Assembly (NCBI RefSeq): GCF_900162665.1
Contig: NZ_LT727813.1
Span: 6,961-70,960, forward strand
Length of the DNA: 64,000 nucleotides
Reading direction: 5' to 3'
DNA from: Oceanobacillus sojae
GTDB taxonomy: Bacteria > Bacillota > Bacilli > Bacillales > Amphibacillaceae
Shown here: positions 2,545 through 52,111 of the stretch, in pieces
How the letters are laid out: each line of letters starts with the position of its first letter
Position numbering within the stretch: the stretch's first letter is position 1
Notes under the pieces: model-generated
Told to the model about the DNA's origin: nothing
Database searches by the model: none
What the model saw: the letters and a program-made list of their open reading frames with translations, nothing else
Program-made: the position numbers and the translations under genes

Positions 2545-2545
2545 T

Positions 2546-36053: not shown

Positions 36054-36189
36054 TTTATCACCCTAAAGTATTTTAGATTTTTTCTAACGATATGATGATT
36101 TTATCAGATTTATTTTAATTTAATGTTAACAGTTAGTTAATATTCACTAAACATTTCTCCTCTACACTAATGAGTAAGGAGAGGATACC
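36054..36189. promoter_or_regulatory. LysR/ABC operon 1 divergent control region
   Basis: 136 bp, very AT-rich, with TATTTTAGATTTT and ATCAGATTTATTTTA motifs that resemble the AAAATCTA motifs upstream of ABC operon 2. A GGAGAGG ribosome binding site precedes the ATPase gene. Confidence 0.4.
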
Positions 36190-37158
36190 ATGAAAATTCT
36201 TTTAAAAGGGGTCGAAAAAAAATACGGAAATATCCAAGCAATAAAACCGATTGATCTAACGATAGAAGATAGATTTGTCACCATTCTTGGTCAATCAGGC
36301 TGTGGTAAAACTACTTTATTAAAAATGCTAGCAGGACTTACAGAACCAACAGCTGGCGAAATTTATTTTGATGACACACCGATTTTTTCTCAGTCAAAAA
36401 AAGTGAATGTAAAACCAAACAAACGAGAAATTGCCATGGTATTTCAAGATTTTGGGCTATGGCCACACATGACTGTTTTTGACAATGTCGCTTTTGGCCT
36501 CAGAGGAAAAATATCAAAATCTGAACGAACAGAGATCGTTCATGATGCATTAAAGAAAGTAAAGCTGGAACAAAAGGCAAAAATGAAACCAGGGGAACTA
36601 TCTGGGGGACAACAGCAACGTGTTGCATTAGCCAGAGCCATCGCTGTTAATCCAAAACTAATTTTATTTGATGAGGCACTTAGTGCACTTGATGCTATTC
36701 TTCGTGAGCAAATGCGTGAAGAGATTTTAACGATCGTACATTCGATTGGTTCAAAGGCTATTTTTGTGACACATGACCAGACCGAAGCAATGGCGATGTC
36801 TGACAACATGATTGTCATGGATAGCGGAGAAGTAGTCCAAACAGGTTCACCTGAAGAAATCTATCATTCTCCTATTAATTCTTTTGTTGCTAATTTTATC
36901 GGCAAGACAAATTGGCTTGAAGAACAAGAAAGAATGATTCGTCCTGAACATGTCCACCCATACCCACAAGCAAATACATCAACGAGATCAGGAATTGTAA
37001 GAAAATGTATGTATGAAGGTGATCGCTATCTCATCTTCGTTGAAACAAACGGCCATATGTGGAAGTTCTATGATCATCATCCACATATACAAGGTGAAAA
37101 GATCATGCTTTATATCGAAGAAAATACGATACATTCATTACAAAAACAGGAGGCGTAA
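36190..37158 (+). CDS. ABC importer ATPase, FbpC/AfuC type (operon 1)
   Basis: 322 residues. Walker A is GQSGCGKTT (about 35-43), the Q-loop is VFQDFGLWPHMTV, the signature LSGGQQQRVALARAI (about 138), Walker B LILFDEALSALD, and the H-loop VTHDQTEAMAMSD. The C-terminal extension (about 245-320) is the regulatory domain usual in Fe3+, sulfate or organophosphate importers. It energises the permease encoded at 38218. First gene of a five-gene operon: the binding-protein gene starts 3 bp after its stop. Confidence 0.92.
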   Translation: MKILLKGVEKKYGNIQAIKPIDLTIEDRFVTILGQSGCGKTTLLKMLAGLTEPTAGEIYFDDTPIFSQSKKVNVKPNKREIAMVFQDFGLWPHMTVFDNVAFGLRGKISKSERTEIVHDALKKVKLEQKAKMKPGELSGGQQQRVALARAIAVNPKLILFDEALSALDAILREQMREEILTIVHSIGSKAIFVTHDQTEAMAMSDNMIVMDSGEVVQTGSPEEIYHSPINSFVANFIGKTNWLEEQERMIRPEHVHPYPQANTSTRSGIVRKCMYEGDRYLIFVETNGHMWKFYDHHPHIQGEKIMLYIEENTIHSLQKQEA

Positions 37159-37161
37159 CAA

Positions 37162-38178
37162 ATGAAAAAATTAAAATTAACGGCTATGGCAGGAATTTTC
37201 ACATCAGCATTACTATTAGGTGCTTGTGGAGCTAATAATGATGAAGCTTCAGGTGCGGAGAATAACACTTCGACAGACGAGAATATGATCACCGTATATT
37301 CAGCAGGACCTGGTGGACTGGCGGAAAATATTCAAGAAGCATTTGAAGAGGAAACAGGTATCAAGGTAGAAATGTTCCAAAGTACGACAGGTAAAATTTT
37401 ATCAAGATTAGAAGCAGAATCAAATAACCCAGTAGCAGATGTTGTTGTACTTGCTTCTGTACCATCCATGGAAGGATTAAAATCAGAAGATAAATTACAA
37501 GCATATGAAGCAGAAAATGGAGAAAGCATCAATCCTGAGTGGAGTGATTCAGACCACTATTATTATGGATATAGTGCAGCTGCTCTTGGTGTTACATATA
37601 ACACAAATCAAGTAGACGCAATCGATGCTGATTGGGATGATTTCAGTGATGCAGAATGGAAAGGTCGTGTTGCGATGCCTGACCCAACTTCTTCCGGCTC
37701 AGCTGTGGACTTTCTATACGGCTTAACGAATCAAACAGACGGCGGTTGGGATACTGTACAAAGCTGGTTAGACAATGACTTATTAATCGCAGGTGCAAAC
37801 AAAGAAGCATTAAACTCTGTAATTACTGGAGATAAAGATGTTGTTGTATCTGCTGTGGACTATATGACATATAAAGCGAAAAATGATGGAGAGCCTGTTG
37901 ATATTTACTATCCTGAAAGTGGTACAGTAATAAGTCCACGAGCTGCCGGTATACTAGCAGATGCACACAACTTAGAAGGTGCTCAAGCATATATCGATTT
38001 CTTATTATCTGATACAGCACAACAATTGATTGCAGATGCCTATATTTTACCTGGTAACGATGCGATTGAATTAAACGATCGAGCAGCATTAAGTGAAATC
38101 TCAACACTTCCACTAGACCTAGAAGATATAGAAGAAAAACAAACAGAAACGTTAAATAAATTCACATCAATGGAGTAA
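37162..38178 (+). CDS. ABC importer substrate-binding lipoprotein (operon 1)
   Basis: 338 residues. A lipoprotein signal peptide ends at LLLGAC (C22), so the protein is tethered to the outer face of the membrane. The rest is an extracellular binding protein of the FbpA/AfuA cluster (VYSAGPGGLAENIQEAFEEE, then DVVVLASVPSMEGL, SAAALGVTYNTNQV, ISPRAAGILADAHN). This cluster binds Fe3+, sugar phosphates, 2-aminoethylphosphonate or related anions. The tyrosine pair typical of ferric-binding proteins is not evident, which favours an organic or phosphorylated ligand. Confidence 0.85.
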   Translation: MKKLKLTAMAGIFTSALLLGACGANNDEASGAENNTSTDENMITVYSAGPGGLAENIQEAFEEETGIKVEMFQSTTGKILSRLEAESNNPVADVVVLASVPSMEGLKSEDKLQAYEAENGESINPEWSDSDHYYYGYSAAALGVTYNTNQVDAIDADWDDFSDAEWKGRVAMPDPTSSGSAVDFLYGLTNQTDGGWDTVQSWLDNDLLIAGANKEALNSVITGDKDVVVSAVDYMTYKAKNDGEPVDIYYPESGTVISPRAAGILADAHNLEGAQAYIDFLLSDTAQQLIADAYILPGNDAIELNDRAALSEISTLPLDLEDIEEKQTETLNKFTSME

Positions 38179-38217
38179 AACTTCTAGATAATGAAGTAAC
38201 AAACTGGAGGAATACGT

Positions 38218-39870
38218 ATGATTGTACGTAGACATGCCCCTTTCACGGCTTTGTTTATTATACTTAGTATTTTAGCTGTAGCACCGCTTCTTGCGGTGCT
38301 AGGCTATACATTCTTTGAAGATGGTAGTCTTTCATTCGATTCACTGCTATCTGTCCTGCAAAATAATAGTATTGTCAAAACGATGCAAAACTCGTTATTG
38401 CTCGGTCTTTATGTCATTGCATTAACGACCTGTATCGCGCTACCACTAGCGATTATTAGAACGAAAACATTTCTAGCAAAATATGACTGGTTAGATATTG
38501 TTTTTACTATTCCATTTATGACACCACCATATATCGGTTCAATGGGATGGATATTGTTCATGCAACATAATGGCTATTATGAACAGATTTTCCAATCAGA
38601 AGCACCGTTTACTTTTTTCAGTGTAGCAGGAATGGTATTTATCATGAGCATGCATCTATATCCATTTCTTTATCTCATGTTAAAGAATGCCTTACTCAGA
38701 TTTGATGGATCCTTTCAAGATGCGACATTAATTTATGGTGGCAATCCGATTATGAACTGGATTCGCACCATTATGCCACTATTAATTTCAAGTTATGTGA
38801 TGGCAGCATTACTCGTTTTCATCAAGGCCTTAGCAGAGTTCGGAACACCTGCCACTTTTGGTAAAAGGATTGGCTATGATGTTTTCACAACAGAAATTCA
38901 TGGCTATCTATCTCATTGGCCGATTAATATTTCTGCTGCGACAAGTTTATCACTTATCTTATTAAGTGTTTGTATGCTTATTTGGTATATCCAAAATGTG
39001 ATTAGTCGTAAACATTCTTACGGTACACTTTCAGGCAAATCAACAAATGCTAACCAAGTGAAAGATTCACTCGTCATCCGAATTGTTTCTTCAGGATATG
39101 TGTTAATTGTATTAGGGTTATCGATTGGTATACCATATTTTTCGATCATTGCTACCTCTTTATTAAAAGTCCGCGGTGAAGCACTTAGCTTGAGTAATAT
39201 AACTTTTAGTCACTATACAGATCTTTTCACAGTTGGTTCTTCTAGTTTTCTAGCATTAATGAACAGTATTAACTTTGCCTTTGTCGCTTCTACTATTGCG
39301 GCTGGTATCGGATTTTGCGCAGCATTATATATTAAAGATGGCAAAAGGAAACCACAACAGTTTCTCGATTTTACGAGCCTGTTATCGAATATCATTCCTG
39401 GCATTGTCTTCGTCGTAGGACTTATTCTATTTTGGAATGCAGCATGGCTTCCTACTACAGTCTATAATACTAACTGGATGCCTATTTTGACTTATATTGT
39501 GTTGTTTTTACCTTATTCTGTTCAATATACAAAGTCAGCTTTATCACAGTTACACCCATCGATTCATCAATCAAATGCAGTTTTTGCGCAAAATAGTTGG
39601 ATAATTTTATTAAAAATATGGCTTCCACTTTTGGGTCAAGGTATTCTAGCCGGATGGATGATGACCTTTATTATTTCTATGCGTGAACTAGTTGGTTCTT
39701 TACTTATTCTCCCTCCATCAGTTGAAACTAGTGCCACCTTCATTTTTAGTCAATTTGAACAAGGTGATGTATCAAAAGGGATGGCAATGGCTGTTATCAC
39801 CGTACTATTAACCATACTTTGTATCTTTTTGATTGAACTCTTGCAACGAAAGGCCTTGCGTACCAACTAA
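38218..39870 (+). CDS. ABC importer fused permease, FbpB/AfuB type (operon 1)
   Basis: 550 residues with about twelve membrane helices in two halves, each carrying a binding-protein-dependent transport domain. EAA-like loops that touch the ATPase are seen around DATLIYGGNPIMNWIRTIMP (about 180) and SNAVFAQNSWIILLKIWLP (about 455). Fused double permeases are typical of the Fe3+/phosphonate group. It follows the binding-protein gene by 39 bp with GGAGG before the ATG, and its stop overlaps the next start. Confidence 0.9.
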   Translation: MIVRRHAPFTALFIILSILAVAPLLAVLGYTFFEDGSLSFDSLLSVLQNNSIVKTMQNSLLLGLYVIALTTCIALPLAIIRTKTFLAKYDWLDIVFTIPFMTPPYIGSMGWILFMQHNGYYEQIFQSEAPFTFFSVAGMVFIMSMHLYPFLYLMLKNALLRFDGSFQDATLIYGGNPIMNWIRTIMPLLISSYVMAALLVFIKALAEFGTPATFGKRIGYDVFTTEIHGYLSHWPINISAATSLSLILLSVCMLIWYIQNVISRKHSYGTLSGKSTNANQVKDSLVIRIVSSGYVLIVLGLSIGIPYFSIIATSLLKVRGEALSLSNITFSHYTDLFTVGSSSFLALMNSINFAFVASTIAAGIGFCAALYIKDGKRKPQQFLDFTSLLSNIIPGIVFVVGLILFWNAAWLPTTVYNTNWMPILTYIVLFLPYSVQYTKSALSQLHPSIHQSNAVFAQNSWIILLKIWLPLLGQGILAGWMMTFIISMRELVGSLLILPPSVETSATFIFSQFEQGDVSKGMAMAVITVLLTILCIFLIELLQRKALRTN

Positions 39871-40952
39871 TGTTAGATGTATGCGCCCTTGGAGGAGTAG
39901 GAGAATATGGTCGCAATTGCTTTTTAGTAACCGACCAACGAACCAACACACGCATTTTACTTGATTGTGGTGTACGAAATGGAGAACCGGAAATATACCC
40001 AGCTATTACAGAGGAAGTAGCAAAACCCATTCAAGCCGTATTTATTTCACATGTTCATAATGACCATGTTGGGGCACTTCCATTCCTAGCGGCAAAAGGA
40101 TTTATAGGGGATATTTGGATGAGCGTAGCTAGCTTCGAACAAATGCCTTCTATTAGGAGAAATTGGCAAGATAAGTTAGGAATTACTGCGATCGACAAAC
40201 TGCATTTTCGCCCTCTTGCTAAAAACACAAGAGGGAAACGAATCAGGTTAACAGAAAACTTGTCCATTACTTGGGGTTATAGTGGTCATATGCTAGGCAG
40301 TGTCTGGTATATCATCCAAATAGGTGAGCAAACACTATTTTATTCTGGGGATATTGCGCTTGCTTCACCACTATTAGTGACAGACAAACCTATTATCAAT
40401 ACGTACGACGTTGCCCTAATAGATAGCGGCCATGGTGCACAAACAATGCCCTATCATAAAAGTATTACGAATATATTGCAGCATATAACAAACCCAATGG
40501 AAAAGTATCTGATTCCGGTTACGATTTCTGGAAAAGCTTGTGATTTACTGTTTTCTCTTTTTCACGAACTGCCAGACAGAATGTTTATAATCGATGATTC
40601 GTTACATCAACATTTATACAACCATTTAGAACACAAAGATAACATACACAATGACAAACTGAAGAAATTTAAAGCAATGCTACAAAGTAATCGTTTGGAG
40701 AGCTATCAAAAAACAAGGAAGCCTGGCATTTACTTATTAAGAGATAAGCCAAGTGGATTTTGTGAAATAAATACGTCTATATATAAAGATGAACAATCCC
40801 CCTTTTACAAATCACATCCTGATTTAGAAGACGTGCAAACACTAATGCGAACGATTGATGCAGAAGAATTTATTTTTTTCCACAGTAAACAAGCGGATTT
40901 AGAAAAGATGTTAGATTCATTACATGTAAAAACTGGAGGGCTTTTAAAATGA
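39870..40952 (+). CDS. Metallo-beta-lactamase/beta-CASP-like hydrolase in ABC operon 1
   Basis: 360 residues. The order of motifs is GGVGEYGRNCFLV, LDCGVRNGEPE, SHVHNDHVGALP (the HxHxDH metal site, about 55-66), SGHMLGSVWYI and FYSGDIAL, which is the MBL core as found in beta-CASP nucleases of the CPSF/RNase J branch. The C-terminal half is shorter and atypical. It overlaps the permease by one base and the next gene by 4 bp, so it is made together with the transporter. A hydrolase acting on an imported phosphoester is my inference; nuclease action is the alternative. Confidence 0.75.
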   Translation: MLDVCALGGVGEYGRNCFLVTDQRTNTRILLDCGVRNGEPEIYPAITEEVAKPIQAVFISHVHNDHVGALPFLAAKGFIGDIWMSVASFEQMPSIRRNWQDKLGITAIDKLHFRPLAKNTRGKRIRLTENLSITWGYSGHMLGSVWYIIQIGEQTLFYSGDIALASPLLVTDKPIINTYDVALIDSGHGAQTMPYHKSITNILQHITNPMEKYLIPVTISGKACDLLFSLFHELPDRMFIIDDSLHQHLYNHLEHKDNIHNDKLKKFKAMLQSNRLESYQKTRKPGIYLLRDKPSGFCEINTSIYKDEQSPFYKSHPDLEDVQTLMRTIDAEEFIFFHSKQADLEKMLDSLHVKTGGLLK

Positions 40953-41743
40953 AAAAAATGATGTTGTTGTTAACGTTATTGTTGAGTGTAGTCATAGGTG
41001 TTGCTACCCCGTCCTATGCAGCAAGTGACATTGAACCTGGTTATGAAATTAAATTCAACCTTGATTTAGATGCTTTTTCAAGTACGATCGATATGCTAGA
41101 TATTTTCGATGCAGAACATGACGAAGATTTAAAAGTTTATTATTTTGATACACCTGATCAAGAATTTCGTCAATTAGGCTATATTCATCGTCTACGTGTT
41201 TATGCTAGCGACAAAAAGACGAACATTACGTATAAAAAAAGATTTACTGGTGTAGCTGTTGAAGACGCGATTGCAGAAGCAACGGAAAAAGGTTTCCACA
41301 ATGATATGCCCAATTACAAATTTGAAAATGACCGTAAAGAAAGAATCGATGTGTTCTCCATTAGTCGAAAAGAAAAATTTACAAAGGATGATATATTACG
41401 CTTTGATCTAATCGATCCACAATATGCAATCGAATTATTCCAAGACGAGGCACCGAAAAAGTACCGCAGATGGGATGATGAAGATTGGTATCGTGAAACG
41501 TTAAGTAATACAATTCCTTATGGGCCTGCATTAGCACACACATACGAAGGTGAGTTCCTAGGCTTTGAAGCTGATTTGGAAATCTGGTCTTATAAAGGAG
41601 ATACCGTTACGGAAATTTCAACGAAAACAGATGATCCAAGAGAAGCTGATCAAATCGAAGCAGCATGGTTCAACAAATTAAGTGAAGAAGGTTGGTTAAG
41701 TGATAACCAAACATCTAAAACTGGATTTGTAATGGATCGCTAA
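40949..41743 (+). CDS. Secreted CYTH/triphosphate-tunnel-like protein (operon 1)
   Basis: 264 residues. The signal peptide (KKMMLLLTLLLSVVIGVATP, cleavage near SYA-AS) exports the protein. The mature part has the CYTH pattern: YEIKFNLDLDAF near its start, VYYFDTPDQEFRQLGY, HRLRVYASDKKTNITYKKRF, and near the end FEADLEIWSYKGDTVTEIST. CYTH proteins form a beta-barrel tunnel that binds triphosphates or polyphosphate with metal. An exported one is unusual. It overlaps the MBL gene by ATGA. A group II intron is inserted directly after its stop codon. Confidence 0.7.
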   Translation: MKKMMLLLTLLLSVVIGVATPSYAASDIEPGYEIKFNLDLDAFSSTIDMLDIFDAEHDEDLKVYYFDTPDQEFRQLGYIHRLRVYASDKKTNITYKKRFTGVAVEDAIAEATEKGFHNDMPNYKFENDRKERIDVFSISRKEKFTKDDILRFDLIDPQYAIELFQDEAPKKYRRWDDEDWYRETLSNTIPYGPALAHTYEGEFLGFEADLEIWSYKGDTVTEISTKTDDPREADQIEAAWFNKLSEEGWLSDNQTSKTGFVMDR

Positions 41744-43465
41744 TCGAGTAGAGGGAAAAACTAAATAACTTTTCGCCCCTCTCACACCACCGTACGTACG
41801 GTTCCGTATACGACGGTTCAATAGTTTAAGTGTACGAACTGGTATTGAAGAGCGATATCTTTATATCCTCTCGATGCCAGTTCTTTGTCTGTCAATGAAC
41901 GGTGGAGTACAAAGCTACTTGATATAATCCAGTAACCTTTTCTTGTATTCGACCATTCATAAGCTTTCCGTTTATCGATACCTAAATGCATTAGATTCTT
42001 TCTTTTGTTGCGTGGATTTTTCCATTGCTTCCAGATATATTGTCTAATCCTTCGCTTCAGCCACCCGTTTAGATTCTTCATAAATCCTTTCATTTCTCCT
42101 ATGCCATAGTAGTTTATCCACCCTGTCATAAGCTGCTGGATTTCTTTAAGAATCATATCGATACTTCGTCCCCGATTACGTTTGGTAATCCGTCTAAGTT
42201 TCTGTTTAACGGTTACTTTTGCTTTATAATGGGGACGGATTTGAATACCTTTCTTTGTAACGAGGAGACAGAAGCCTAGAAACTTTCGTTTCAAAGGGCT
42301 ACCCACCGCACTCTTTTCTCGATTCACTGTAAGACTCAAATCCGTCTCGAGAAATTTCGTGATACTTTTCATTACGCGCTGACCTGCTCTTTTACTTTTC
42401 ACATAAATGTTACAGTCATCTGCGTAACGCACGAATCGATGTCCTCGTTTCTCCAGTAGCTGGTCTGATTCGTTTAAGTAGATATTACTGAGTAACGGAG
42501 ACAGGTTTCCTCCTTGTGGCGTTCCTTCCTCCGATTTTTCAAAGATGCCGTCAATCATGATTCCACTTAATAAATATTGTCTTATCAAGCGTAGTACTCG
42601 TTTATCCGTTATCCGCTTTTCCACAAAGTGCATCAGTTTATCATGATTTGCTGTATCGAAGTAGGCTTTCATATCCAAGTCCACCACATATTTGTATCCT
42701 TGTTCGTAGTACGACTTTGCCCGTATGATGGCTTGATGTGCACTACGTTTTGGACGAAACCCAAAACTATTATCGGAGAACGTCGGTTCAAATATTGGTT
42801 GTAATACTTGGTTTATTGCTTGCTGAAGCATTCGGTCAATAACGGTAGGAATCCCCAGTTTTCTTGTTCCGCCGTCTTGTTTTGGAATGTCAACCCGTAA
42901 TACGGGTTGAGGATATTTCCCAAGATGCAACTGCGTTAATAATTCTTCCCTATGTTTCTTCAAGTATGGAAGCAGCCTGTCATATGTCATACCATCAACT
43001 CCAGCTGCACCCTTACTTCTGACCACTTGAAGGTAAGCTTGATTTAGATTATTCCTTGAAAGGATTCTTTCAAACAGATTCGACACACCATTTTGATTGT
43101 TCTTTTCACCATGAAAGGCACTATGCGCTTCGACATACCCTTCATGTTCCACACTATCTCTCTGCCGATAGCCAGATTCTCCTGTTTTCTGCAGTTCTCG
43201 CGCCTTTCACACCTCCTGGACTTTTCAAAATTACTATCGTTCGGTCCTTCATGTTTTGGTCCTTTCACACTACTACGACCTCTGCTGACTTCTTGTGATT
43301 TACCAAGATATCACCATCATGGTTGTGTCGGCTCGTTATCACTCAACTTACACGTCACCCTCACAAGACCTCCCCCGGTAAGAACGAAAACTTTCCTCCC
43401 ACGTAACTGCTAGATTTACTGTATAGGTTTCGGGCAGTATTGGATTTTGTCTCGTTGCGCAGACT
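41744..43465 (-). mobile_element. Group II intron
   Basis: The minus strand has an RT/maturase gene framed by RNA structure. Downstream of the gene, domain V-like bases are seen (GTATACGGAACCGTACGTAC near 41780-41815) followed by GGTGTGAGAGGGGCG for domain VI, and the intron ends near TCTACTCGAT at about 41744. The 5' end lies near 43460 (TGCGCAACGAGAC). The boundaries are estimated. It is inserted just after operon 1, where it does no coding damage. Confidence 0.75.
41818..43152 (-). CDS. ltrA: Group II intron reverse transcriptase/maturase
   Basis: 444 residues. RT motifs are SKGAAGVDGMTYDRL, YVVDLDMKAYFDTANHD, GTPQGGNLSPLLSNIYL and the catalytic RYADD (about 240-244). The maturase (X) domain includes QQLMTGWINYYGIGEMKGF. 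No HNH endonuclease domain is seen at the C-terminus, so insertion probably relies on replication forks or single-stranded DNA. It helps the intron splice and move. It starts at a GTG inside intron domain IV. All residues needed for RT activity are present. Confidence 0.93.
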   Translation of the reverse strand: MEHEGYVEAHSAFHGEKNNQNGVSNLFERILSRNNLNQAYLQVVRSKGAAGVDGMTYDRLLPYLKKHREELLTQLHLGKYPQPVLRVDIPKQDGGTRKLGIPTVIDRMLQQAINQVLQPIFEPTFSDNSFGFRPKRSAHQAIIRAKSYYEQGYKYVVDLDMKAYFDTANHDKLMHFVEKRITDKRVLRLIRQYLLSGIMIDGIFEKSEEGTPQGGNLSPLLSNIYLNESDQLLEKRGHRFVRYADDCNIYVKSKRAGQRVMKSITKFLETDLSLTVNREKSAVGSPLKRKFLGFCLLVTKKGIQIRPHYKAKVTVKQKLRRITKRNRGRSIDMILKEIQQLMTGWINYYGIGEMKGFMKNLNGWLKRRIRQYIWKQWKNPRNKRKNLMHLGIDKRKAYEWSNTRKGYWIISSSFVLHRSLTDKELASRGYKDIALQYQFVHLNY

Positions 43466-43473
43466 CATCCGAC

Positions 43474-43602
43474 CTAATTCAGCCTTCTATATGCAGATAA
43501 GACTCCAATAAGTGCAATCGTTATTACGACAGTAGGCAATGCGGTAACAATCACCCCATTGATCATACCGAACAAACCACCAATACGATATGCCACTTCC
43601 AT
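43474..43602 (-). CDS. 42-residue hydrophobic membrane peptide
   Basis: The product begins MEVAYRIGGLFG, continues with one membrane helix (about 14-36) and ends SAYRRLN. A GAGGTAG site precedes the ATG. It lies 15 bp after the 12-codon frame at 43618 and just before the group II intron. It could be a small membrane protein or toxin-like peptide. I do not recognise it. Confidence 0.45.
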   Translation of the reverse strand: MEVAYRIGGLFGMINGVIVTALPTVVITIALIGVLSAYRRLN

Positions 43603-43617
43603 TACTACCTCAACCTG

Positions 43618-43656
43618 CTAATAATACATTACAACTATTGCTGCTCGTTTTCTCAT
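43618..43656 (-). CDS. 12-codon frame with strong ribosome binding site
   Basis: MRKRAAIVVMYY is preceded by GGAGGAGAGAGG. It may be a leader peptide coupled to the 42-residue gene after it. Evidence is limited to the strong ribosome binding site and spacing. Confidence 0.35.
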   Translation of the reverse strand: MRKRAAIVVMYY

Positions 43657-43960
43657 CCTCTCTCCTCCTGAATACATACGATTTAAATATGATAATACCG
43701 TTTCTACCCTTTTATAGGAACAGAAGAAAGTACTATTTATAGTGTTTAAAACAATCAAGCAATGAAATAGGCCTAAAATATAAAACAGAAAAGAAAACTC
43801 CTTTCTGCTAAATTTAAACAAATAAACTGTAAAAAATAAGAAAAAACCTTTATTCACGCCCTCTTCATTGTCATTAGATATATAGAAATAATCATTTCTC
43901 TATAGCATGGTAATACTTGATAATATTTATCCACTATAACGAAGGAGTAGGTGTTATATA

Positions 43961-44658
43961 ATGAAAAAGTATGTAATGGCCACGATGATTCTATTTGTAA
44001 GCGCATTATTGTTAATGGCATGCAGTGAGTAAAACGATGAAATTGAAGCTGCCAATACCAATACCGCTAATCATCAGGAAGATGATTGTGAAAATCAAGA
44101 AGCGAGCGCAACTCTTCCGGAAGAAGTAATTCGTGATGCAGATGCTGACTCAATAGAGCTTGAAGACCAAATGAGACTTGAAATTAGAGATATGGGCTAT
44201 GTCATCACACAGTCGGAAAAAATCCCGCTTGCATTAACGTTAAACAGCGTGGAAAAAACACAAGATCTTGGAACAGAAACGAAAGACGGGGATGAATTTT
44301 ACCTGGTCGGTAATTTCACATTCGAGAACCTGTCGGATAGTAATATAAAAAATTGAAAAGCTAGATGCAGCTTCAGGAGCAGATGAATCCATAATCCTGA
44401 ATGATGAACCGACGAAAGGTGACCGACTCCCACGTTGGTGCGTGGTATCTTGATGGGCAAAGTAATATCGACTCTAACAATCGAACAAACACTGTCTCCT
44501 TAAGTCCTTGGGAAGAAGCAAATGACAAGATTGCTATTTCTATGCATGACAGTGCATATAAGTATATCATTTTCTTTGGTCTTTATACTTCAAATAACAG
44601 AGATTATCAGAACAAGGCTGCATGGACAGTCCAGCCTTACCAGATAGACGAAAATTAA
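43961..44658 (+). pseudogene. Lipoprotein gene with nonsense and frameshift mutations
   Basis: MKKYVMATMILFVSALLLMA followed by CSE is a lipoprotein signal peptide, but a TAA stop comes right after. The frame continues with acidic residues to 44171 and then EIRDMGYVITQSEKIPLALT and FYLVGNFTFENLSDSNIKN, another stop, and in a shifted frame HVGAWYLDGQSNIDSNNRTN to VQPYQIDEN. The beta-sandwich wording (GNFTFENLSD) resembles DUF4352-like lipoproteins. With at least two breaks it is not functional. Confidence 0.7.
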
Positions 44659-44742
44659 CCCATCAGTTGACTTCACGCAAAAATCGGCATTTTAAATATC
44701 CTCATACAAAATGCTATTCCATTAAAGTGTTATGTTAGAAAA

Positions 44743-45543
44743 TTATTTATCCTTACTCAAAATATACCGTTCTTCCGCCGCAAGCTCTTTCATTCTATCC
44801 GGATTTACTATTTTATCGAAAAGATCAGCTGGATTGGCATTAAAAGCCTCCATATTTGGCGCATCAACCGTTCCCCAGTGGGAAAGAAGCAAGTTAGCTT
44901 CGGGATAGGTATTGGCCAGCTTTACTGCATTATCAAAGCCAATATGCCACTCATTATCGGAGAAATCAAAGAGAATCGCATCGGGTTCCGGCATTTGTAA
45001 ATGTTCTTCCATCAGACGGAAATCACCGGGAATCCATAATGTTCCATCAGTCGTCTCTATCCAGAATCCACAATAATCCTCTAGTTTAAACACATGATCA
45101 AATTTGCTGGTTTCATTTTGCCATAAATGATTTGCTGGCGTCAGTATAATTTTTATTTCTTCTATATTAAATGTTGTATGGATATCATGTCCAATTGCAT
45201 CTGTATGGAATTCCTTTGAATAAAGCTCTGCAACATATTTGGGTGCATAAAAGGATTCTGTAACGGGGAGTAAATTTTTTAATGTATCTAAGCTAAAATG
45301 GTCATTATCAGAATGTGTCATTAAAATTCCATCAAGTTTTGGCACTTCTTCTGTTTTAATTGGCATATCATTTAATAAGGGCAGTTCAAAACCTTCTAAA
45401 ACGGAATCAACCATAATACAGGTTCCTCTGCTATTCAGTAAAATCTCCGAATTTCCAAGCCATCTGATTTCTGTTTCATTGATTGCTTCAAATGCTTCCG
45501 CAGAAAAGGAAATTGTTTTTCGGGGTGTTGCTTGTTTCATCAT
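44743..45543 (-). CDS. UlaG-like metallo-beta-lactamase-fold hydrolase
   Basis: 266 residues. The MBL motifs are RWLGNSEILLNSRGTCIMVD, GILMTHSDNDHFSLDTL (the metal-site HxDxDH variant), a later ANHLWQ, WIPGDFRLM and LLSHWGTVDAP. This layout is that of the UlaG/RomA branch, which includes lactonases and phosphodiesterases. The substrate is unknown. It is monocistronic, between a broken lipoprotein gene and a MerR fragment, and is not part of the two ABC operons. Confidence 0.8.
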   Translation of the reverse strand: MMKQATPRKTISFSAEAFEAINETEIRWLGNSEILLNSRGTCIMVDSVLEGFELPLLNDMPIKTEEVPKLDGILMTHSDNDHFSLDTLKNLLPVTESFYAPKYVAELYSKEFHTDAIGHDIHTTFNIEEIKIILTPANHLWQNETSKFDHVFKLEDYCGFWIETTDGTLWIPGDFRLMEEHLQMPEPDAILFDFSDNEWHIGFDNAVKLANTYPEANLLLSHWGTVDAPNMEAFNANPADLFDKIVNPDRMKELAAEERYILSKDK

Positions 45544-45672
45544 TATTATCGCCTCATCTTTTATTACTTTTAGTCAAAAATTGTACTTCCTATTTATAGT
45601 TTGAATATACGTTAACTACAATCATAGTAATCCTGTCATTCTCATAAGAAATCTACTTTTATACAATATTCT

Positions 45673-45870
45673 TCACGTTTTATCTATAAGCATATTTTCA
45701 CATGTTACAAATTTATTTTCGTAATTCGTAATTTTATTATTCAATCGCTGTATTGTTTTGTTTAACTCTTTCTGTTTAATCAAAAGTTTATCTCTTTCTT
45801 CTATTAATATTTGTTTTCTTCGGTTAGTCGTTTCATCGCCCTCTTGATATAGCCTTGTATACTCGGTCAA
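45673..45870 (-). pseudogene. MerR-family regulator, C-terminal fragment
   Basis: TRLYQEGDETTNRRKQILIE, then ERDKLLIKQKELNKTIQRLN, is the dimerisation helix of a MerR regulator of the YyaN type. The DNA-binding half is missing. Upstream bases read nothing related. Confidence 0.65.
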
Positions 45871-46058
45871 GACATCGATAGAAAAGGCTGAGAATGGATG
45901 CCTTCTTTTTCAGCCTCTTTTCTGGTGAGTGATCTGTCCACGTCCGTTCATACCTGATAAATGAATCGCATTGCGCCACGGCTTTCCAGTTGAGCGCATC
46001 ATGCCGACAATCTAAACGATGTCAGGAAAAAATATTCGATATGAGTAAAGCTAAATCA

Positions 46059-46121
46059 AAAAATACCCAACACGTCAGTTAATCTTCCTTAAGCATAGTT
46101 TATCTACGTGTTGAGTATTTT
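46059..46121. terminator. Long-loop inverted repeat
   Basis: AAAATAC-CAACACGT pairs with ACGTGTTG-GTATTTTT. A second stem, AGGATAG-CTAT with ATAG-CTATCCT, follows at about 46190-46223. The stretch 45871-46058 has a minus-strand scrap (GKPWRNAIHLSGMNGRGQIT) that I cannot assign. Confidence 0.45.
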
Positions 46122-46239
46122 TCTATATACTTATTGATCGCTCACGTTATCTCGGGCGCTATTTCTAGGTTCCCATTAGTAAACTCAAAAGGATAGCCTA
46201 TCTCTTCAAATAGACTATCCTTCACTTTTATCGATAATT

Positions 46240-46570
46240 TATTCGTCTACATCAGCTACACCCGTTTGCTGATAATCAATTAAGATAACAGAACGCATGC
46301 CAGCTTCTTCTGCGTCTCCGTTTTCAACCGGATTGACATAATGGGAAACAGCAGAATCTTGTACACCGAACGATTCTAAAGGCTTGGTAATCTCAAACAC
46401 TCAATTACATCATCCTGATTTCACCGTCCTGAAGAAAACAATTTGGAGAAGAAACAGCCCTATCTGAGTCATTTTCTACATACAGCTTCACAAGATGCAT
46501 TCCAACATGAATTGGCATAATCTGGTCTTCTTCCTTCCAAAAAGTTTCATGGTAGCCCTTGATTTTTAGT
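46240..46570 (-). pseudogene. Lipoprotein-like protein of unknown family, frameshifted fragment
   Basis: The minus strand reads HETFWKEEDQIMPIHVGMHL, VKLYVENDSDRAVSSPNCFL, QDGEIRMM, a break near 46400, then VFEITKPLESFGVQDSAVSH, YVNPVENGDAEEAGMRSVIL and DYQQTGVADVDE. It reads as the C-terminal half of an extracytoplasmic beta-sandwich protein. The N-terminus is absent. The gap 46571-46888 shows nothing else. Confidence 0.5.
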
Positions 46571-46888
46571 TACTCATCTATATGACTCCTTTATAATAAA
46601 CTTCTTGTCAGCTCTTCCCGTAAGATTGAAAGGCAAGAAAGGTTGATTCCAAGCTATTATTTTAGGTGATTCAAAAGGAAAAGACAAATGGACAGAGTTC
46701 GTTATACATTTTGTACAAATTATTAAAAGAGTTTTTTAACTAAGACTGTTAAAATCACCATTCCTATTTGATGAACGCTGTTTAGTAACTTAGATGTGAG
46801 TCAAGGTTCTTCTTCCCAGAAGCTCTAAAATGGAAACTACAAGAAAAAATCATTTTCTTCCAACAGTAGAGAGCATTATCCATAAAAT

Positions 46889-47392
46889 TCATTTCGAATG
46901 TTGTACTTGCAACCATAATTGATAGTTACCTAACCTTTTATCTAAGCTCACATCTTCACCGAACCAGTTTGGCGGGGTAAATTTATCTACTTCTTCCTCA
47001 TTCTGAAACTCCACTTCAGCAACTAAGAGGGGTATTTGTTCGTATTGGTCGATTTCTATATAAGTATTCATTCCGCTTAATTGCCAAATAGATCTTGTTT
47101 TTATAAGTGCTTGCTTATTCGCCATATTGATTAGTTGCTCATATATTTCTTTTGAAATTTCATATTCGATTTCATCTCGAATAATCCCGCTTCCTTCTTT
47201 AAAAGTGTGAGTATATTTAACATATCCTGTTTGTATATTAACTATTTTCCGCACTCGGATTTGTTGAGTAGGCTGATAAGCCAAATATGTTTGTTCGATT
47301 AAATAAGTGGATATCATTTTTAAAATTCCCTTCTGAATTTCATTATCAGGGTAGGCAGACAAAACAAATTTCCGTTCAATTTCTAATGTTAT
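46889..47392 (-). CDS. CYTH-domain protein (triphosphate tunnel fold), operon 2
   Basis: About 168 residues. The N-terminal LEIERKFVLSAYPD holds the ExExK signature of CYTH proteins, followed by QQIRVRKIVNIQTGYVKYTH, TFKEGSGIIRDEIEYEIS, MNTYIEIDQYEQIPLLVAEV and a final NWFGEDVSLDKRLGN. CYTH enzymes hydrolyse inorganic triphosphate, thiamine triphosphate or related compounds with metal in the tunnel. The start is odd: codons before LEIERK are ATT ATT ATA ACA behind a CGGAGGG site and no ATG, GTG or TTG is in frame; ATA at 47392 or ATT at 47395 is the likely start, or the start is mutated. The previous gene ends 24 bp upstream. Confidence 0.8.
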   Translation of the reverse strand: MTLEIERKFVLSAYPDNEIQKGILKMISTYLIEQTYLAYQPTQQIRVRKIVNIQTGYVKYTHTFKEGSGIIRDEIEYEISKEIYEQLINMANKQALIKTRSIWQLSGMNTYIEIDQYEQIPLLVAEVEFQNEEEVDKFTPPNWFGEDVSLDKRLGNYQLWLQVQHSK

Positions 47393-47415
47393 AATAATCG
47401 CCCTCCGTTCTTTGT

Positions 47416-48054
47416 TTAAATATAGTCGTCCCCATATACAATTTGTTTTTGTAAAGGATAAGAATTCACCTCTTCAGAATTATTTATCCGCACGAAATAA
47501 GATATCCAATTTGTTAAATCTACAAGCGATAAATTAGAACCATGACCGGCACCTGTATCTATTCCAACCATCCCTTTCTTCAACCAAATTTGACCAGTAC
47601 TGGATGCCAGTCTAAATGTTGGTGTGTGACCAAATACAACTATTCTATCAGGAAAGCATTCGAAAGATGGTGTATTAATTCCTGTTAAATCTTCTATACG
47701 TTGTTTATACAATGGTAGACTTTTCTTTATACCGGCATGAACAAATATGAAAGGACTAATCTCTTTGTAAAAGGGCAGTGATTTCAAAAAAGATTTCCAT
47801 CTTGCTGTATCACTGTTTTCAGAGTTTAACCATTTCAATTCATTATTACCTGCCAGAGCGATGGCACCTTCCTTACATAAAGATTCAATGCTTTGCAGGG
47901 TACCGATGGAGTCAGGGCCTTTATTTATGTAATCACCTAACATAATTAGTTGATCTATATCAGGTGAATAATTTACTGCTTGTAATAACTTAGTGAGTAA
48001 ATGTCCATTTCCATGGACATCCGATATTGCAAGTATTCGCTTTTGATTTTTCAT
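47416..48054 (-). CDS. Metallophosphoesterase, ApaH/PrpE type (operon 2)
   Basis: 212 residues from the ATG at 48054, with GGAG 9 nt upstream. Metal-site motifs in order: AISDVHGNGHLL, MLGDYINKGPDS, LAGNNELKW, FIFVHAGIKK and VVFGHTPTF. The family holds diadenosine tetraphosphatases and protein phosphatases of the PPP fold. The GNNE variant replaces the usual GNHE motif. It lies 30 bp after the ATPase gene and before the CYTH gene, so it probably acts on what the transporter brings in. Confidence 0.85.
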   Translation of the reverse strand: MKNQKRILAISDVHGNGHLLTKLLQAVNYSPDIDQLIMLGDYINKGPDSIGTLQSIESLCKEGAIALAGNNELKWLNSENSDTARWKSFLKSLPFYKEISPFIFVHAGIKKSLPLYKQRIEDLTGINTPSFECFPDRIVVFGHTPTFRLASSTGQIWLKKGMVGIDTGAGHGSNLSLVDLTNWISYFVRINNSEEVNSYPLQKQIVYGDDYI

Positions 48055-48084
48055 AAAGATAGTCTCCAAATAACAATTAATAAA

Positions 48085-49170
48085 TTATAACTTAAATATA
48101 CGCGTTTGCTGGACAGAGAAGGAAATGTTCATAATGTCATCTAAAGATTGCTTTTTCGTATGCAGAGCCTCAATATACTGCCCATCCTTCATTTCTAATC
48201 GATACCGCCATCTACTTCCCTCATAAATTACTTGCACAATTTTTGCTTCTATATAATTCTCAGGTTGAAATGAAACTGAATCAAAATGAATTGCTTCTAA
48301 TTGGAGCATTACCAATACATCATCTCCAACAGATAGTTTGTCATTTTGACCTGTTTGAAGTGTTCCTTTTACCGAATACTCGCCACATTGAATGGTGGCT
48401 GTGCCATCATTAATCGAGGTGATTTTTCCCTTTAATCGATTTTGGTACCCCATTAATTGCGCTACACCCAGTGTTTCAGGTTCCTCATACATTTTTTGAG
48501 GCGATGCAAGCTGTTCAATTTTTCCTTGGTGCAGGACAAGAATTCGGTCCGCCAAGGCAAAAGCTTCCATCATATCGTGTGTTACATAAATTGTTGTAAT
48601 CGAAAGCCTACGTAAAATATCAGCTAATTCACTTCTCATTTCCGTCCGCAGCTTTACATCTAAATTAGATAAAGGTTCATCCATTAGCAGGATATTGGGC
48701 TCTGTAGCTAACGCTCTGGCAATTCCTACTCTTTGCTGTTGCCCACCAGATAATTCAGATGGCAGCCTATTCAACAGCCCTTCCAATTGGAGCAGTTGGG
48801 AGACTGATTCTATCCTCTTCCGTCTAATGGATTCAGGGACTTTAGACATTTTCAAACCATATTCTATATTTTTACGGACGGTCATATGCGGCCACAATGC
48901 ATAATCCTGAAACACCATATTAATTGGCCTTTTCTCAGGCGGAATAAATTTATTCCTGCTCAATGCTTGTAAACCACTCATGTTTATTTCTCCATGCTCA
49001 GCTTTTAACAACCCAGCAATAATCTGTAGTAATGTAGATTTACCACTGCCAGAAGAGCCCAAAAGACATATACACTCTCCCTCTATCATTTCAAATGAAA
49101 TACCATCTAACACTTTTGTCATGCCAAAAGATTTTTGGACATCATTTATCTTTAAGATTGGTTCCAACAA
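48085..49170 (-). CDS. ABC importer ATPase, FbpC/PotA type (operon 2)
   Basis: 361 residues. Walker A GSSGSGKST, Q-loop VFQDYALWPHMTV, signature LSGGQQQRVGIARALA, Walker B ILLMDEPLSNLD and H-loop VTHDMMEAFALAD are intact. The C-terminal TOBE-type domain (about 240-355) is present. Starts at a TTG behind GAGGG and overlaps the end of the permease gene by 29 bp. It powers the permease at 49142-50893. Confidence 0.92.
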   Translation of the reverse strand: MLEPILKINDVQKSFGMTKVLDGISFEMIEGECICLLGSSGSGKSTLLQIIAGLLKAEHGEINMSGLQALSRNKFIPPEKRPINMVFQDYALWPHMTVRKNIEYGLKMSKVPESIRRKRIESVSQLLQLEGLLNRLPSELSGGQQQRVGIARALATEPNILLMDEPLSNLDVKLRTEMRSELADILRRLSITTIYVTHDMMEAFALADRILVLHQGKIEQLASPQKMYEEPETLGVAQLMGYQNRLKGKITSINDGTATIQCGEYSVKGTLQTGQNDKLSVGDDVLVMLQLEAIHFDSVSFQPENYIEAKIVQVIYEGSRWRYRLEMKDGQYIEALHTKKQSLDDIMNISFSVQQTRIFKL

Positions 49171-50893
49171 AATTACCCTCTTTTCTATCTAGTTGATCAA
49201 TTTTCTTGAAAATAAAGTTAAATACATACTGGACACCTATAATTAATAACACAACGATAGCTCCGCCAATTATAGTTGCAGCAGTAGCATATCCATATTT
49301 AGCAAATTCAAACGCCTCATCAATTACTAAAGGCAAAAGTACAAAATTTGACGGCTTTAGCATGGAGGCTGTAGCCAAATCAAATACACTGGTACCAAAT
49401 GAAGCAAGCACGGCAAGTAATAAAGTATTTCGCACAATTGGCAAGATAATCGTCCTCATTTTAGTAAACATCGATGCACCTTGTACTGCAGCCGCTTTAA
49501 GTAAGGACGGAGATAAATTAGCAAACGTCCCTAATTGGACACGCACTGCATAAGGAATCGCTCCAGCAACTGCTGCCATGATAAGTAAAGATGGTTTCCC
49601 ATATAAATGAAGACCAATTGGTTCCAACCATTTTTGGTTCCATATGAAAATATAACCAATACCTAACACAACTCCCGGCACAGCTAAAGAAACTAAAGTA
49701 AATACATGAAGAGAGCTTTTTAATCTGGACTTAGTAAAAGTCAATACGTAAGCTACGATGAATCCAAGAATAATACTAATAATTGCCGCTATAGCTGCAA
49801 TAGTAAGTGAATTTTTCAACCCTTCCAAAATCGATAACTGTGAATAATCTAATCCATTCGCTCCACCTAAAACATCAATATAATGTTTGAATGTAAAATT
49901 ATCTAATTTTATACCTGCGCCTAAATGCTTCATAAATGATACCGTTGCACTCGTCCCAATTGGGATTCCTAAACATAAAATCAGAAAAGCGAATGTCCCG
50001 ATACTTAATAACCAAGCACGTTTTGGTTTCTTTTTTGTTACTCGTATGGCTTTACTATTTAAGAAATCTACTTTTGATTTTTTAATTGCAACAAATAAAA
50101 TAGCCATAGTCAATGCTAAAATAAGCACTAAATAAAAAGATAATACTCCTGCCATATCAAATCTTACCGGCGATTGATTGATAGCAGAATAGATGGAGTA
50201 GGGTAAAGTTGGAAAACGATATACTGTAGCTAATGCTGCAGGAAGTCCAAAATCACCAATAGTATCAATGAACACAAGCGTCCAGCCAGCAAAATAAGCA
50301 GGTAATGATAGTGGAAGCTGTACCGTCCTCCACACCGTGAAAGGACGAGCTCCATTTAGCCTTGCTGCATGCTCAAACCGCGATACATTCCACTCCATAG
50401 CGGCTACTACTGTCAAATATGCCAGAGGAAACTTTGTTAATCCCATAATAAAAATTAAGCCACTAGGTTGAAATATAAATGAAGTCACCCAAGACCAACC
50501 TAACACACTGTTCGCCAATCCTTCAGAACTGGCGAACAATACCCATCCTTGTGCAATTATAAAAGAAGGGGCTATCAGCAAAACCCATACAGCAATATCT
50601 AACCATCGCGCTGCAGCATAATCCCATTTTGACCGGATAGTTGCTAATAAGCCGCCAAGTATTGTTCCAAAGGTTGCCGCCCCAAGACCGAGCATGACAG
50701 AATTTTTTAAAGATACGTACCACAGTTCTCTTTCAAATATCTCAAAGATAACCTGAAAACCATTGAACTCTAAATTCCCAAAAAATAATCCTGGTAAGAC
50801 AGCATTTAAAATAACAGCAAGCAAAGGTAAAAAGATAAAGATAAACAGTATAAGAGTAACTACCCCGCCTAATCGATTTTCATTTCGGTTCAT
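49142..50893 (-). CDS. ABC importer fused permease, FbpB type (operon 2)
   Basis: 583 residues with about twelve helices in two halves. EAA-type loops are visible at EHAARLNGARPFTVWRTVQL (about 180) and KAAAVQGASMFTKMRTIILP (about 480). The size and two-domain layout equal the operon 1 permease, but the sequences are clearly different. It sits 12 bp after the binding-protein gene. Confidence 0.92.
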   Translation of the reverse strand: MNRNENRLGGVVTLILFIFIFLPLLAVILNAVLPGLFFGNLEFNGFQVIFEIFERELWYVSLKNSVMLGLGAATFGTILGGLLATIRSKWDYAAARWLDIAVWVLLIAPSFIIAQGWVLFASSEGLANSVLGWSWVTSFIFQPSGLIFIMGLTKFPLAYLTVVAAMEWNVSRFEHAARLNGARPFTVWRTVQLPLSLPAYFAGWTLVFIDTIGDFGLPAALATVYRFPTLPYSIYSAINQSPVRFDMAGVLSFYLVLILALTMAILFVAIKKSKVDFLNSKAIRVTKKKPKRAWLLSIGTFAFLILCLGIPIGTSATVSFMKHLGAGIKLDNFTFKHYIDVLGGANGLDYSQLSILEGLKNSLTIAAIAAIISIILGFIVAYVLTFTKSRLKSSLHVFTLVSLAVPGVVLGIGYIFIWNQKWLEPIGLHLYGKPSLLIMAAVAGAIPYAVRVQLGTFANLSPSLLKAAAVQGASMFTKMRTIILPIVRNTLLLAVLASFGTSVFDLATASMLKPSNFVLLPLVIDEAFEFAKYGYATAATIIGGAIVVLLIIGVQYVFNFIFKKIDQLDRKEGNFVGTNLKDK

Positions 50894-50905
50894 AATATTC
50901 TATCC

Positions 50906-51976
50906 TTAATTAACATTTTGATCAGCAAACCAAGTTTTTATTTCTGTTTCGTGTTCTGCCGCCCATTCCGCTGGAGGAAGTAAAAACGTACCATTTTGTT
51001 CGCGTTCTTTACGCATTTCAGTTCCTTTACTGAGCGGAGTGAAAAAGCTTGAGCTGTCATCTTCAAGAGAAGTCAGGTAGTTTTGTGTATCTGGTTCTAA
51101 CATATACTCCACAAATACCTTCGCAGCTTCCAAATTTTTAGAATCTTTATTGATTGCAACTACTCGCACACTGCCTGGTGCTCCTTCTTCAGGCCAGATA
51201 ACACCTACATTTTCTCCATCAAGTTCAGCTTGATATGCATTATGCTCTTGTAAAGCTGCAACATGAATTTCACCATTAATTACTGCACTTGTAACAGGTC
51301 CGTTTTTGGGATATATATTAAAACCATCTTCAAAACGCTTTAGATAGCGTTCTTTCCCTTCCTCTACTCCCCATTTATAGAAAAGGGAAGAAACTAATGG
51401 ATAAGCTGGTGCTGCAACTGCTGGATCAGCATGCCCAACAGGGCCATCATAAGCAAAAAATTCATCCCAAGTTTTTGGTGCTGTTTCCTCTGTTAAAATA
51501 TCTGTATTATAAACAATAACAGCTGAAGCATGAATCCCGATTGGGGTATATGCATTATCCTCAGGCACCAACTCTGTTCCTTCTTCACTCAGTAAATCAA
51601 TATTTTCTGGCTTCCAATCAGTAAGCAAAAATCCTCGGTCAGCTAAATTTCTAATTGATCCATGACCATCCATCATAATGACATCCCACTGCGGGTTACC
51701 TTGCTCAGCTTCAATTTGGGCAAGTGCCTCTCCCCCACCGTAGTGAACCCCTTCGATTTCGTACCCCGTATCTCCTTGAAACTTCGGAGAAATTTCCTCT
51801 ATAAAATCATTACCATAAAGTTTAATTGGCTCTCCAGTTCCTTTTTCGCCTTCTGCATTTTGCTCCTTCGATGATTCATCTGAAGCTGTGCTCTTTTCAT
51901 CCTCGTTTAAACTACAAGCTGTAAGAACGAGAAAAGAAAATAAACAGATAAACAATATAGTCTTACTTCTTAGCAT
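50906..51976 (-). CDS. ABC importer substrate-binding lipoprotein (operon 2)
   Basis: 356 residues. The signal peptide ends with the lipobox LVLTAC (C21), followed by a Ser/Glu-rich linker. The binding domain (KLYGNDFIEEISPKFQGDTG, DVIMMDGHGSIRNLADRGFL, GIHASAVIVYNTDIL, AALQEHNAYQAELDG) belongs to the FbpA/PotD-like cluster that includes phosphonate and polyamine binders. It is the first gene of operon 2 and is divergent from a LysR gene. The ligand cannot be read from sequence. Confidence 0.85.
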   Translation of the reverse strand: MLRSKTILFICLFSFLVLTACSLNEDEKSTASDESSKEQNAEGEKGTGEPIKLYGNDFIEEISPKFQGDTGYEIEGVHYGGGEALAQIEAEQGNPQWDVIMMDGHGSIRNLADRGFLLTDWKPENIDLLSEEGTELVPEDNAYTPIGIHASAVIVYNTDILTEETAPKTWDEFFAYDGPVGHADPAVAAPAYPLVSSLFYKWGVEEGKERYLKRFEDGFNIYPKNGPVTSAVINGEIHVAALQEHNAYQAELDGENVGVIWPEEGAPGSVRVVAINKDSKNLEAAKVFVEYMLEPDTQNYLTSLEDDSSSFFTPLSKGTEMRKEREQNGTFLLPPAEWAAEHETEIKTWFADQNVN

Positions 51977-52096
51977 GTGCCTTCCCCCAATTTTTTGTGA
52001 ATTACTTACAGAGTTAAATATAAAGTATGAACATTAACTATTTGTAAATTAGCAGTAAACTTCTTGTAAAATAAAATCTATTTTATATTAAATCCC

Positions 52097-52111
52097 ATAG
52101 ATAAAATCTAT
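52097..52111. promoter_or_regulatory. Candidate LysR operator for ABC operon 2
   Basis: ATAGAT-AAA-ATCTAT is a perfect dyad between the divergent binding-protein and LysR genes. A related AAAATCTATTTTAT lies just before it. Confidence 0.45.

Follow-up and report, generated by a model that had tools for sequence, protein, structure and literature searches.

What do two ATP-binding cassette (ABC) importer operons in the genome of Oceanobacillus sojae take up, and what do they have in common? They lie in a 64,000-nucleotide stretch of contig NZ_LT727813.1 (positions 6,961 to 70,960; hereafter the window), and each combines a substrate-binding lipoprotein (SBP), a fused double permease and an ATPase with a divergent LysR-type regulator, a metallohydrolase and a CYTH protein. 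According to the original prediction, the same functional set, CYTH protein included, had been assembled twice to capture and degrade a phosphorylated compound. The twelve genes were all present as open reading frames (ORFs) where it had placed them, the start of CYTH2 being corrected from TTG 47362 (table 1). Our analysis suggests that both operons probably serve Pho-controlled import of organophosphates followed by cytosolic hydrolysis, that is, phosphorus scavenging, and that their common logic is regulatory and chemical, not CYTH based. We found no description of either operon in the open-licence literature; the VIA-align rows consulted for comparison cannot exclude families outside those listed.

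Table 1. Coordinates, in the window, of the genes and promoter elements of the two operons
Feature	Position	Strand	Basis
LysR1, divergent regulator of operon 1	35175..36053	-	ORF
LysR-type operator TAGA-N5-TCTA, operon 1	36074..36086	.	
PhoP-type array, operon 1, four hexamers, 11-bp period, 22/24 relaxed consensus	36115..36153	+	
-10-like hexamer TACACT, 9 bp past array, operon 1	36163..36168	+	
ATP1, importer ATPase	36190..37158	+	PF00005
SBP1, binding lipoprotein with AfuA-type phosphate cup	37162..38178	+	PF13343; hand-mapped 4r72 alignment; family alignment
PERM1, fused double permease	38218..39870	+	PF00528; TIGR03262 below cut-off
MBL1, compact beta-CASP hydrolase, no signal peptide seen	39870..40952	+	
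CYTH1, secreted triphosphate-tunnel protein, incomplete metal site	40949..41743	+	
CYTH2, cytosolic canonical CYTH with ExExK, non-standard start	46889..47392	-	Frame reading, relatives, Pfam
MPP2, calcineurin/ApaH-like phosphoesterase (ATG 48054 alternative start)	47416..48069	-	PF00149
ATP2, importer ATPase	48085..49170	-	PF00005
PERM2, fused double permease	49142..50893	-	PF00528
SBP2, lipoprotein, AfuA phosphate cup not kept	50906..51976	-	Domain match; alignments to 4r72 and 6wce
-10-like hexamer TATATT, 9 bp past array, operon 2	52017..52022	-	
PhoP-type array, operon 2, 22/24	52032..52070	-	
LysR-type operator TAGA-N5-TCTA, operon 2	52098..52110	.	
LysR2, divergent regulator of operon 2	52240..53124	+	ORF; homologues divergent in L032, L126, L127

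At the level of the genes, the earlier view stands that no simple duplication is involved: the importers are paralogues only distantly related to each other, with 41% identity between the ATPases and 26% between the SBPs, the permeases and the LysRs, and the two CYTH proteins gave no BLAST match to each other at E ≤ 10. Operon 1 is a real conserved unit, with the order LysR (divergent), then ATPase-SBP-permease-MBL-CYTH, where MBL stands for the metallo-beta-lactamase-like hydrolase. A scan of GTDB with the MBL alignment yielded 53 loci. At E ≤ 1e-27, a line drawn after the list had been inspected, the importer precedes the MBL gene in the same order in all 31 loci (L138-L167 and L169), and each has a divergent LysR gene, that of L167 being closer to LysR2; the remaining 22 loci encode weakly similar MBL proteins and lack the operon-1 importer set. 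CYTH1 follows the MBL gene in 23 of the 31 and is missing in eight (L140, L142, L143, L145, L162, L163, L164, and L167). The importer and the MBL protein are therefore an inseparable pair, and CYTH1 is a frequent companion. The hosts include Gracilibacillus, Ornithinibacillus, Amphibacillus, Planococcus, Alkalicoccobacillus, Shouchella, Terribacillus, Lysinibacillus, Viridibacillus, Metasolibacillus, and Clostridium neonatale.

Of 159 genomes of the family, 10 contain a CYTH1 relative, as do 6 of 299 genomes in an order-wide draw; both counts include the genome of the window. For 12 CYTH1 loci outside this genome, 14-20 kb each were read: 11 show the complete order, and the twelfth (G104) has CYTH1 alone; three further genomes (G036, G028, and G005; permeases 84-89% identical) carry operon 1 up to the MBL gene, with no CYTH1 match. 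Several of the 31 GTDB loci belong to these same genomes, and the sets are not additive. Among 31 relatives, the genes of operon 1 mostly overlap or are separated by short gaps, as expected for a single transcript; the longest gap, of 209 bp, lies between the SBP and permease genes. The exception is L154 (Lysinibacillus parviboronicapiens), which has 541 bp ahead of CYTH1 and an MBL gene divided over two frames.

The promoters point to the regulatory part of the common logic. We scored four TT[ACT]A[CT]A hexamers with a period of 11 bp (maximum 24) along both strands of the entire window. A score of 22 is reached at two sites only, the promoters of operons 1 and 2, each in the direction of its operon. 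When the -10-like hexamer is included they rank first and second in the window (totals of 27 and 26); four other sites reach 24-25, two of them on the reverse strand of the operon-1 spacer. Dinucleotide shuffles attained 22 once in 5,000 for operon 1 and four times in 5,000 for operon 2 (0 of 1,000 for operon 1 in a separate run on both strands), and among 35 chosen 265-bp upstream regions of the window only these two exceed 20. Three genes of the same genome served as positive controls: pstS (21), alkaline phosphatase (22), and ppk (23; assigned by visual reading of its N-terminus) all have 9 bp (N9) between the array and a -10-like TAnnnT hexamer, and at each the array located regardless of the -10 is the one with N9. 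Six two-component-type importers of the same class, used as negative controls, reach 16-18, those of this genome and of G077 being near-identical. The arrangement is conserved: over about 110 bp, the LysR1-ATP1 spacers of 32 loci align with almost no gaps; at this register their arrays score 22 (24 loci), 21 (6), or 20 (2), and a TAnnnT hexamer is always present. The arrays of the operon-2 relatives score 24 of 24 in G110 and 21 in both G032 and G022.

The Bacillus subtilis PhoP consensus is given as TT(A/T/C)ACA-N4-6-TT(A/T/C)ACA (PMC12404567), PhoP-type boxes are described at phyL (PMC6327384), and 11-nt repeat units are described (PMC4415409). Both predicted promoters have repeats about 5 nt apart and the layout of the Pho genes of their own genome, sharing the TT(A/T/C)ACA-like array and the -10 spacing with pstS, alkaline phosphatase, and ppk; compared with the Bacillus Pho regulon, they carry an additional LysR-type operator upstream, and their regulation is deduced here from sequence. 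Elsewhere in this genome, a mismatch-free three-hexamer Pho-type array lies upstream of a ppk-like gene (L192; G000 C15, near 355072), and a score-23 Pho-type array has only a 75-aa ORF listed downstream (L191; G000 C14, near 511343).

The operator TAGA-N5-TCTA occurs three times in the window (36074, 52098, and 63216). It lies upstream of the array, at a distance of 41 bp in operon 1, 40 bp in operon 2, and 40, 41, and 41 bp in the three operon-2 relatives. That the operons share a logic, as originally proposed, is borne out at this level, both promoters having the same operator at the same distance from the same type of array. The operator is intact in 13 of the 32 operon-1 spacers and degenerate in 19; it is absent from the promoters of pstS, alkaline phosphatase, and ppk in this genome. 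The divergent and conserved LysR genes, and the conservation of array and operator as one block, would also fit an array that is the activation site of LysR, not a PhoP site, with operons responding to their substrate only. We regard this as rather improbable, as the operator is centred about 90-100 bp before the likely start, beyond the usual position of a LysR site near -65, four direct repeats at 11 bp fit a regulator of the OmpR class, and the succession of array, N9, and -10 is also seen at the operator-free pstS, alkaline phosphatase, and ppk.

The binding proteins bear on the chemistry. Among solved chains, SBP1 matches an iron-type protein best, then AfuA (E = 1.1e-17), a FutA-type protein, and P5PA (4.9e-17); P5PA and AfuA are the best matches of SBP2. 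PMC8427247 gives the phosphate cup of AfuA as Ser37, Gly38, Thr60, Ser148, Gly149, Thr150, and Gly185. The equivalents in SBP1, traced manually through the 4r72 alignment using an offset of two that we derived, are T76, G77, S99, S178, G179, S180, and N213, seven of seven being small polar residues or Gly. SBP1 also lacks the tyrosine pair (YY) of the aligned iron proteins. Together with PhoP-type arrays like those of pstS, alkaline phosphatase, and ppk, the retention of the cup upholds the earlier proposal that a phosphorylated compound is captured and hydrolysed. Both operons share the FbpA-class lipoprotein and permease with AfuABC and P5PAB of Actinobacillus, but identity is low, and they have a LysR, a PhoP-type promoter, a cytosolic hydrolase, and often a CYTH protein. 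Import of a sugar phosphate or another carbon source, in the manner of AfuABC or Hpt and with hydrolases unrelated to the substrate, would account for the cup of SBP1 and its alignments with AfuA and P5PA. It is an unlikely reading given the Pho-type promoters at both operons, with none at the six two-component-type importers examined, and the complete importer-hydrolase linkage (31/31).

A second candidate substrate is a phosphonate such as 2-aminoethylphosphonate (2-AEP), for which Pho-type promoters would be equally fitting: the PhnS2 and PhnU2 models of NCBIfam are the best hits for both SBPs and both permeases. All these matches fall far short of the cut-offs. The PhnS2, PhnT2, and PhnU2 scores are 106 of 392.75, 287.3 of 457.7, and 138.8 of 593.25 bits in operon 1 and 54.5, 306.4, and 118.8 bits in operon 2, so neither operon reaches the cut-offs of the 2-AEP importer. 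No phosphonatase, PhnW, or C-P lyase was noticed by eye among the listed ORFs of the window, with no search aimed at them, and the partner enzymes have ester-hydrolase folds. Phosphonate import is accordingly, in our judgement, very improbable.

The partner enzyme of operon 1, MBL1, is a complete compact beta-CASP protein of 360 aa with a fold match over its whole length. Residues D32, H61, H63, D65, H66, H140, D161, D185, H316, and H338 are invariant in 15 of 15 sequences, and we take them to represent MBL motifs 1-4 and beta-CASP motifs A, B, and C. Motifs and fold thus place MBL1 among the beta-CASP proteins, with a putative nuclease activity, beta-CASP enzymes being known as nucleases. Compared with RNase J, CPSF73, archaeal KH-CPSF, and type VII Cas14, MBL1 has neither KH nor C-terminal domains, scores below every NCBIfam cut-off listed, and is tied to an ABC importer. 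A type VII CRISPR link was considered and rejected: the match to the Cas14 model is far below cut-off and corresponds to the beta-CASP fold. In Clostridium neonatale (L167), genes that look cas-like by eye follow the operon-1 MBL gene from 9553 onward; none were seen by eye near the five other operon-1 loci inspected alongside it.

Several observations weigh against Pho-controlled organophosphate import. The 11-bp layout was first noticed in operon 1 and then tested elsewhere. The array score is not rare in itself: at a 10-bp period, two score-22 sites occur elsewhere in the window; with 12 or 13 bp before the -10 the highest total is 26, versus 27 with 9 bp; and 6 of the 32 operon-1 spacers have an equal or higher array on the other strand or one unit along. 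The perfect two-hexamer consensus is found once elsewhere in the window and at neither operon, both of which match the strict pair only with one mismatch; perfect pairs exist in G110 and G032, and the strict two-hexamer search was not discriminating. A genome-wide three-hexamer search gave 29 hits, versus 12 for the reversed pattern; pstS and alkaline phosphatase are absent from the 29, their arrays having been located by inspecting their upstream regions, so single hits of this search mean little. On the protein side, the top solved match of SBP1 by E-value is an iron protein, and the juxtaposition of a beta-CASP (nuclease) protein and a small-molecule importer is unexplained. The cup of AfuA is not kept in SBP2, where DPAVAAPAY replaces DPQSSGTAY and H105 stands at the position of Thr60; the argument on the ligand of SBP2 hence comes from regulation and the phosphoesterase alone.

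CYTH1 scores just below the Pfam CYTH cut-off of 23.2 (the two CYTHs as first listed had 20.9 and 22.6 bits). All 13 members of its family match CYTH at E ≤ 1 (best 3.8e-07), and it has a confident fold, the tunnel of the CYTH or triphosphate tunnel metalloenzyme (TTM) type; its top structural matches are tripolyphosphatase complexes. It shares this fold, the tunnel Arg/Lys residues, and a single last-strand acid (E222) with the group of AtTTM3, YgiF, class IV cyclases, and Vtc4. Unlike these, it is secreted and lacks the canonical ExExK: the 13 members have GxExK (12) or SxExK (1), G31 aligning with the first Glu of the YgiF motif. In the last predicted strand (218-227), E222 is the only invariant acid and no second acid stands at i+2, so the last-strand ExE is gone, as argued from the predicted strand and not from a residue alignment; a profile comparison with canonical CYTHs gave no useful alignment. 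In its incomplete acidic motif, CYTH1 is nearer to Vtc4 or AtTTM1/2, which are described as lacking an acidic motif. The Glu residues missing in CYTH1 matter for tripolyphosphate (PPPi) hydrolysis according to PMC4641920, and CYTH1 may bind rather than cleave. Residues 31-152 show a weak match to mycoplasma lipoprotein MG045 (PF02030) in 3 of the 13 members, the first member being below cut-off.

The tripolyphosphatase matches of CYTH1 and the full ExExK of CYTH2 would suit uptake of inorganic tripolyphosphate or polyphosphate, with a CYTH protein trimming the chain and the importer taking the product. This is quite improbable: the CYTH protein is dispensable, CYTH1 lacks Glu residues that matter for PPPi hydrolysis, and a constant beta-CASP partner is unexpected for an inorganic chain. 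Nor did the CYTH proteins prove to be part of a common functional set. CYTH1 is missing in eight operon-1 loci, the junction of CYTH2 with operon 2 was found only in the window, and the two differ in kind, CYTH1 being secreted with an incomplete metal site and CYTH2 cytosolic with a full ExExK. The expected enrichment of CYTH genes near FbpA/AfuA-type importers was rejected: among the matches listed for 159 genomes (at least 150 CYTH genes and at least 150 fused permeases, these from 93 genomes), 0 of 150 canonical CYTH genes are located 30 kb or less from any of the 150 permeases, PERM2-type permeases and CYTH1 falling outside those listed. The Pfam CYTH search is blind to some divergent CYTHs; in the genome of the window it detected one ordinary CYTH elsewhere and, weakly, CYTH1, with CYTH2 missing from the list.

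Operon 2 is rarer than operon 1, and its ApaH-like phosphoesterase recurs. Among the 159 genomes, three have PERM2 relatives of at least 50% identity, G110 (86%), G032 (53%), and G022 (50%), all with a divergent LysR2 and SBP2. The phosphoesterase gene follows in G110 and G032, the two whose contig spans that place; the contig of G022 stops inside the permease gene, which also has a stop. The best solved chain for MPP2 is 2qjc, a putative diadenosine tetraphosphatase. Residues 10-83 align with diadenosine tetraphosphatases, but MPP2 reaches 62.7 of the 176 bits of the NCBIfam ApaH cut-off and, compared with ApaH and PrpE-like enzymes, is importer linked.

The CYTH2 frame extends past TTG 47362 through an intact EIERKF to ATA 47392, or to the ATT just before; this non-standard start lies behind GGAGG, 23 bp after the phosphoesterase gene. 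Relatives start with MSLEIERKF, the N-terminal ExExK is present as EIERK (P0020), and from the extended start the protein scores 31.4 bits against the Pfam cut-off of 23.2. Four database relatives were found, itself included, one being from Gracilibacillus alcaliphilus (P0021); with P0022, the relative from Paenibacillus, as query, the family was detected in 25 of 398 genomes of the class, its own included. No fused FbpA-type permease was seen at the 25 loci from the 24 other genomes, some of them cut by contig ends. At three of these loci, an ABC set with separate permeases lies about 2-5 kb upstream; at the one read in detail, it sits with genes that by eye resemble nucleoside hydrolase and adenine deaminase. 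G032 and G022 yielded no CYTH2 match. In G110, operon 2 is not followed by CYTH2, which is present as two fragments, one containing four stops, some 7 kb past the phosphoesterase gene; this remnant (L014 and L015; C9 185304-185622) lies on the far side of a second FbpA-type importer operon. Given its absence from operon 2 of the relatives and the lack of fused permeases near it elsewhere, CYTH2 looks like a canonical cytosolic enzyme that recently joined operon 2.

We propose that, upon phosphate depletion, PhoP would bind the four-hexamer array just upstream of the -10, and that the divergent LysR, on the shared operator 40-41 bp further up, would add a substrate-specific signal. The lipoprotein would then capture an organophosphate for import by the fused permease and the ATPase, as their families suggest, and a cytosolic metallohydrolase suited to the substrate, beta-CASP in operon 1 and ApaH-like in operon 2, would release phosphate. 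The CYTH proteins would be optional, CYTH1 binding or slowly trimming a triphosphate or pyrophosphate group outside the membrane and CYTH2 acting as an ordinary cytosolic triphosphatase, added late. Because the beta-CASP, ApaH-like, and CYTH families mainly have nucleic acids, nucleotides, or triphosphates as substrates, our tentative guess is that the imported compounds are most likely nucleotide-like. In one conceivable version, which we put forward with low confidence, operon 1 might import intact nucleotides, dinucleotides, or short oligonucleotides to be cut inside by the beta-CASP enzyme, with CYTH1 presenting or trimming the ligand, and operon 2 might do the same for dinucleoside polyphosphates through its ApaH-like enzyme.

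Other genes of the window include a reverse transcriptase ORF directly after CYTH1 (41818-43152, minus strand; PHROG match, group II intron type by eye), a UlaG-like metallohydrolase gene (by eye; 44743-45543, minus strand) between the operons, whose product has no meaningful BLAST similarity to MBL1, and an IS21-like transposase and helper pair (by eye; 1816-4036, minus strand). In other genomes, a SurE gene precedes FbpA-type importers at L130 (12723-15149) and L128 (13420-14247), both checked, and by eye at L129 and L137; the L130 importer is also preceded by a PHP-domain protein and a xylose-isomerase-like TIM barrel. These SurE- and PHP-linked importers (Terribacillus, G119) are a third importer-phosphohydrolase pairing. 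As their arrays score 18-20 and lack the operator, we do not claim Pho control for them; the array of a further importer, in G023 (L131), scores 19.

The usual view is that bacteria remove phosphate from organic molecules extracellularly. The operons described here form a family in Bacillota in which an importer is paired with one particular cytosolic hydrolase, under promoters suggestive of phosphate starvation combined with a specific sensor. A beta-CASP protein would thereby gain a place outside RNA processing and a secreted CYTH protein a context, and these operons would provide a set of orphan importers for dissolved organic phosphorus that is directly testable.

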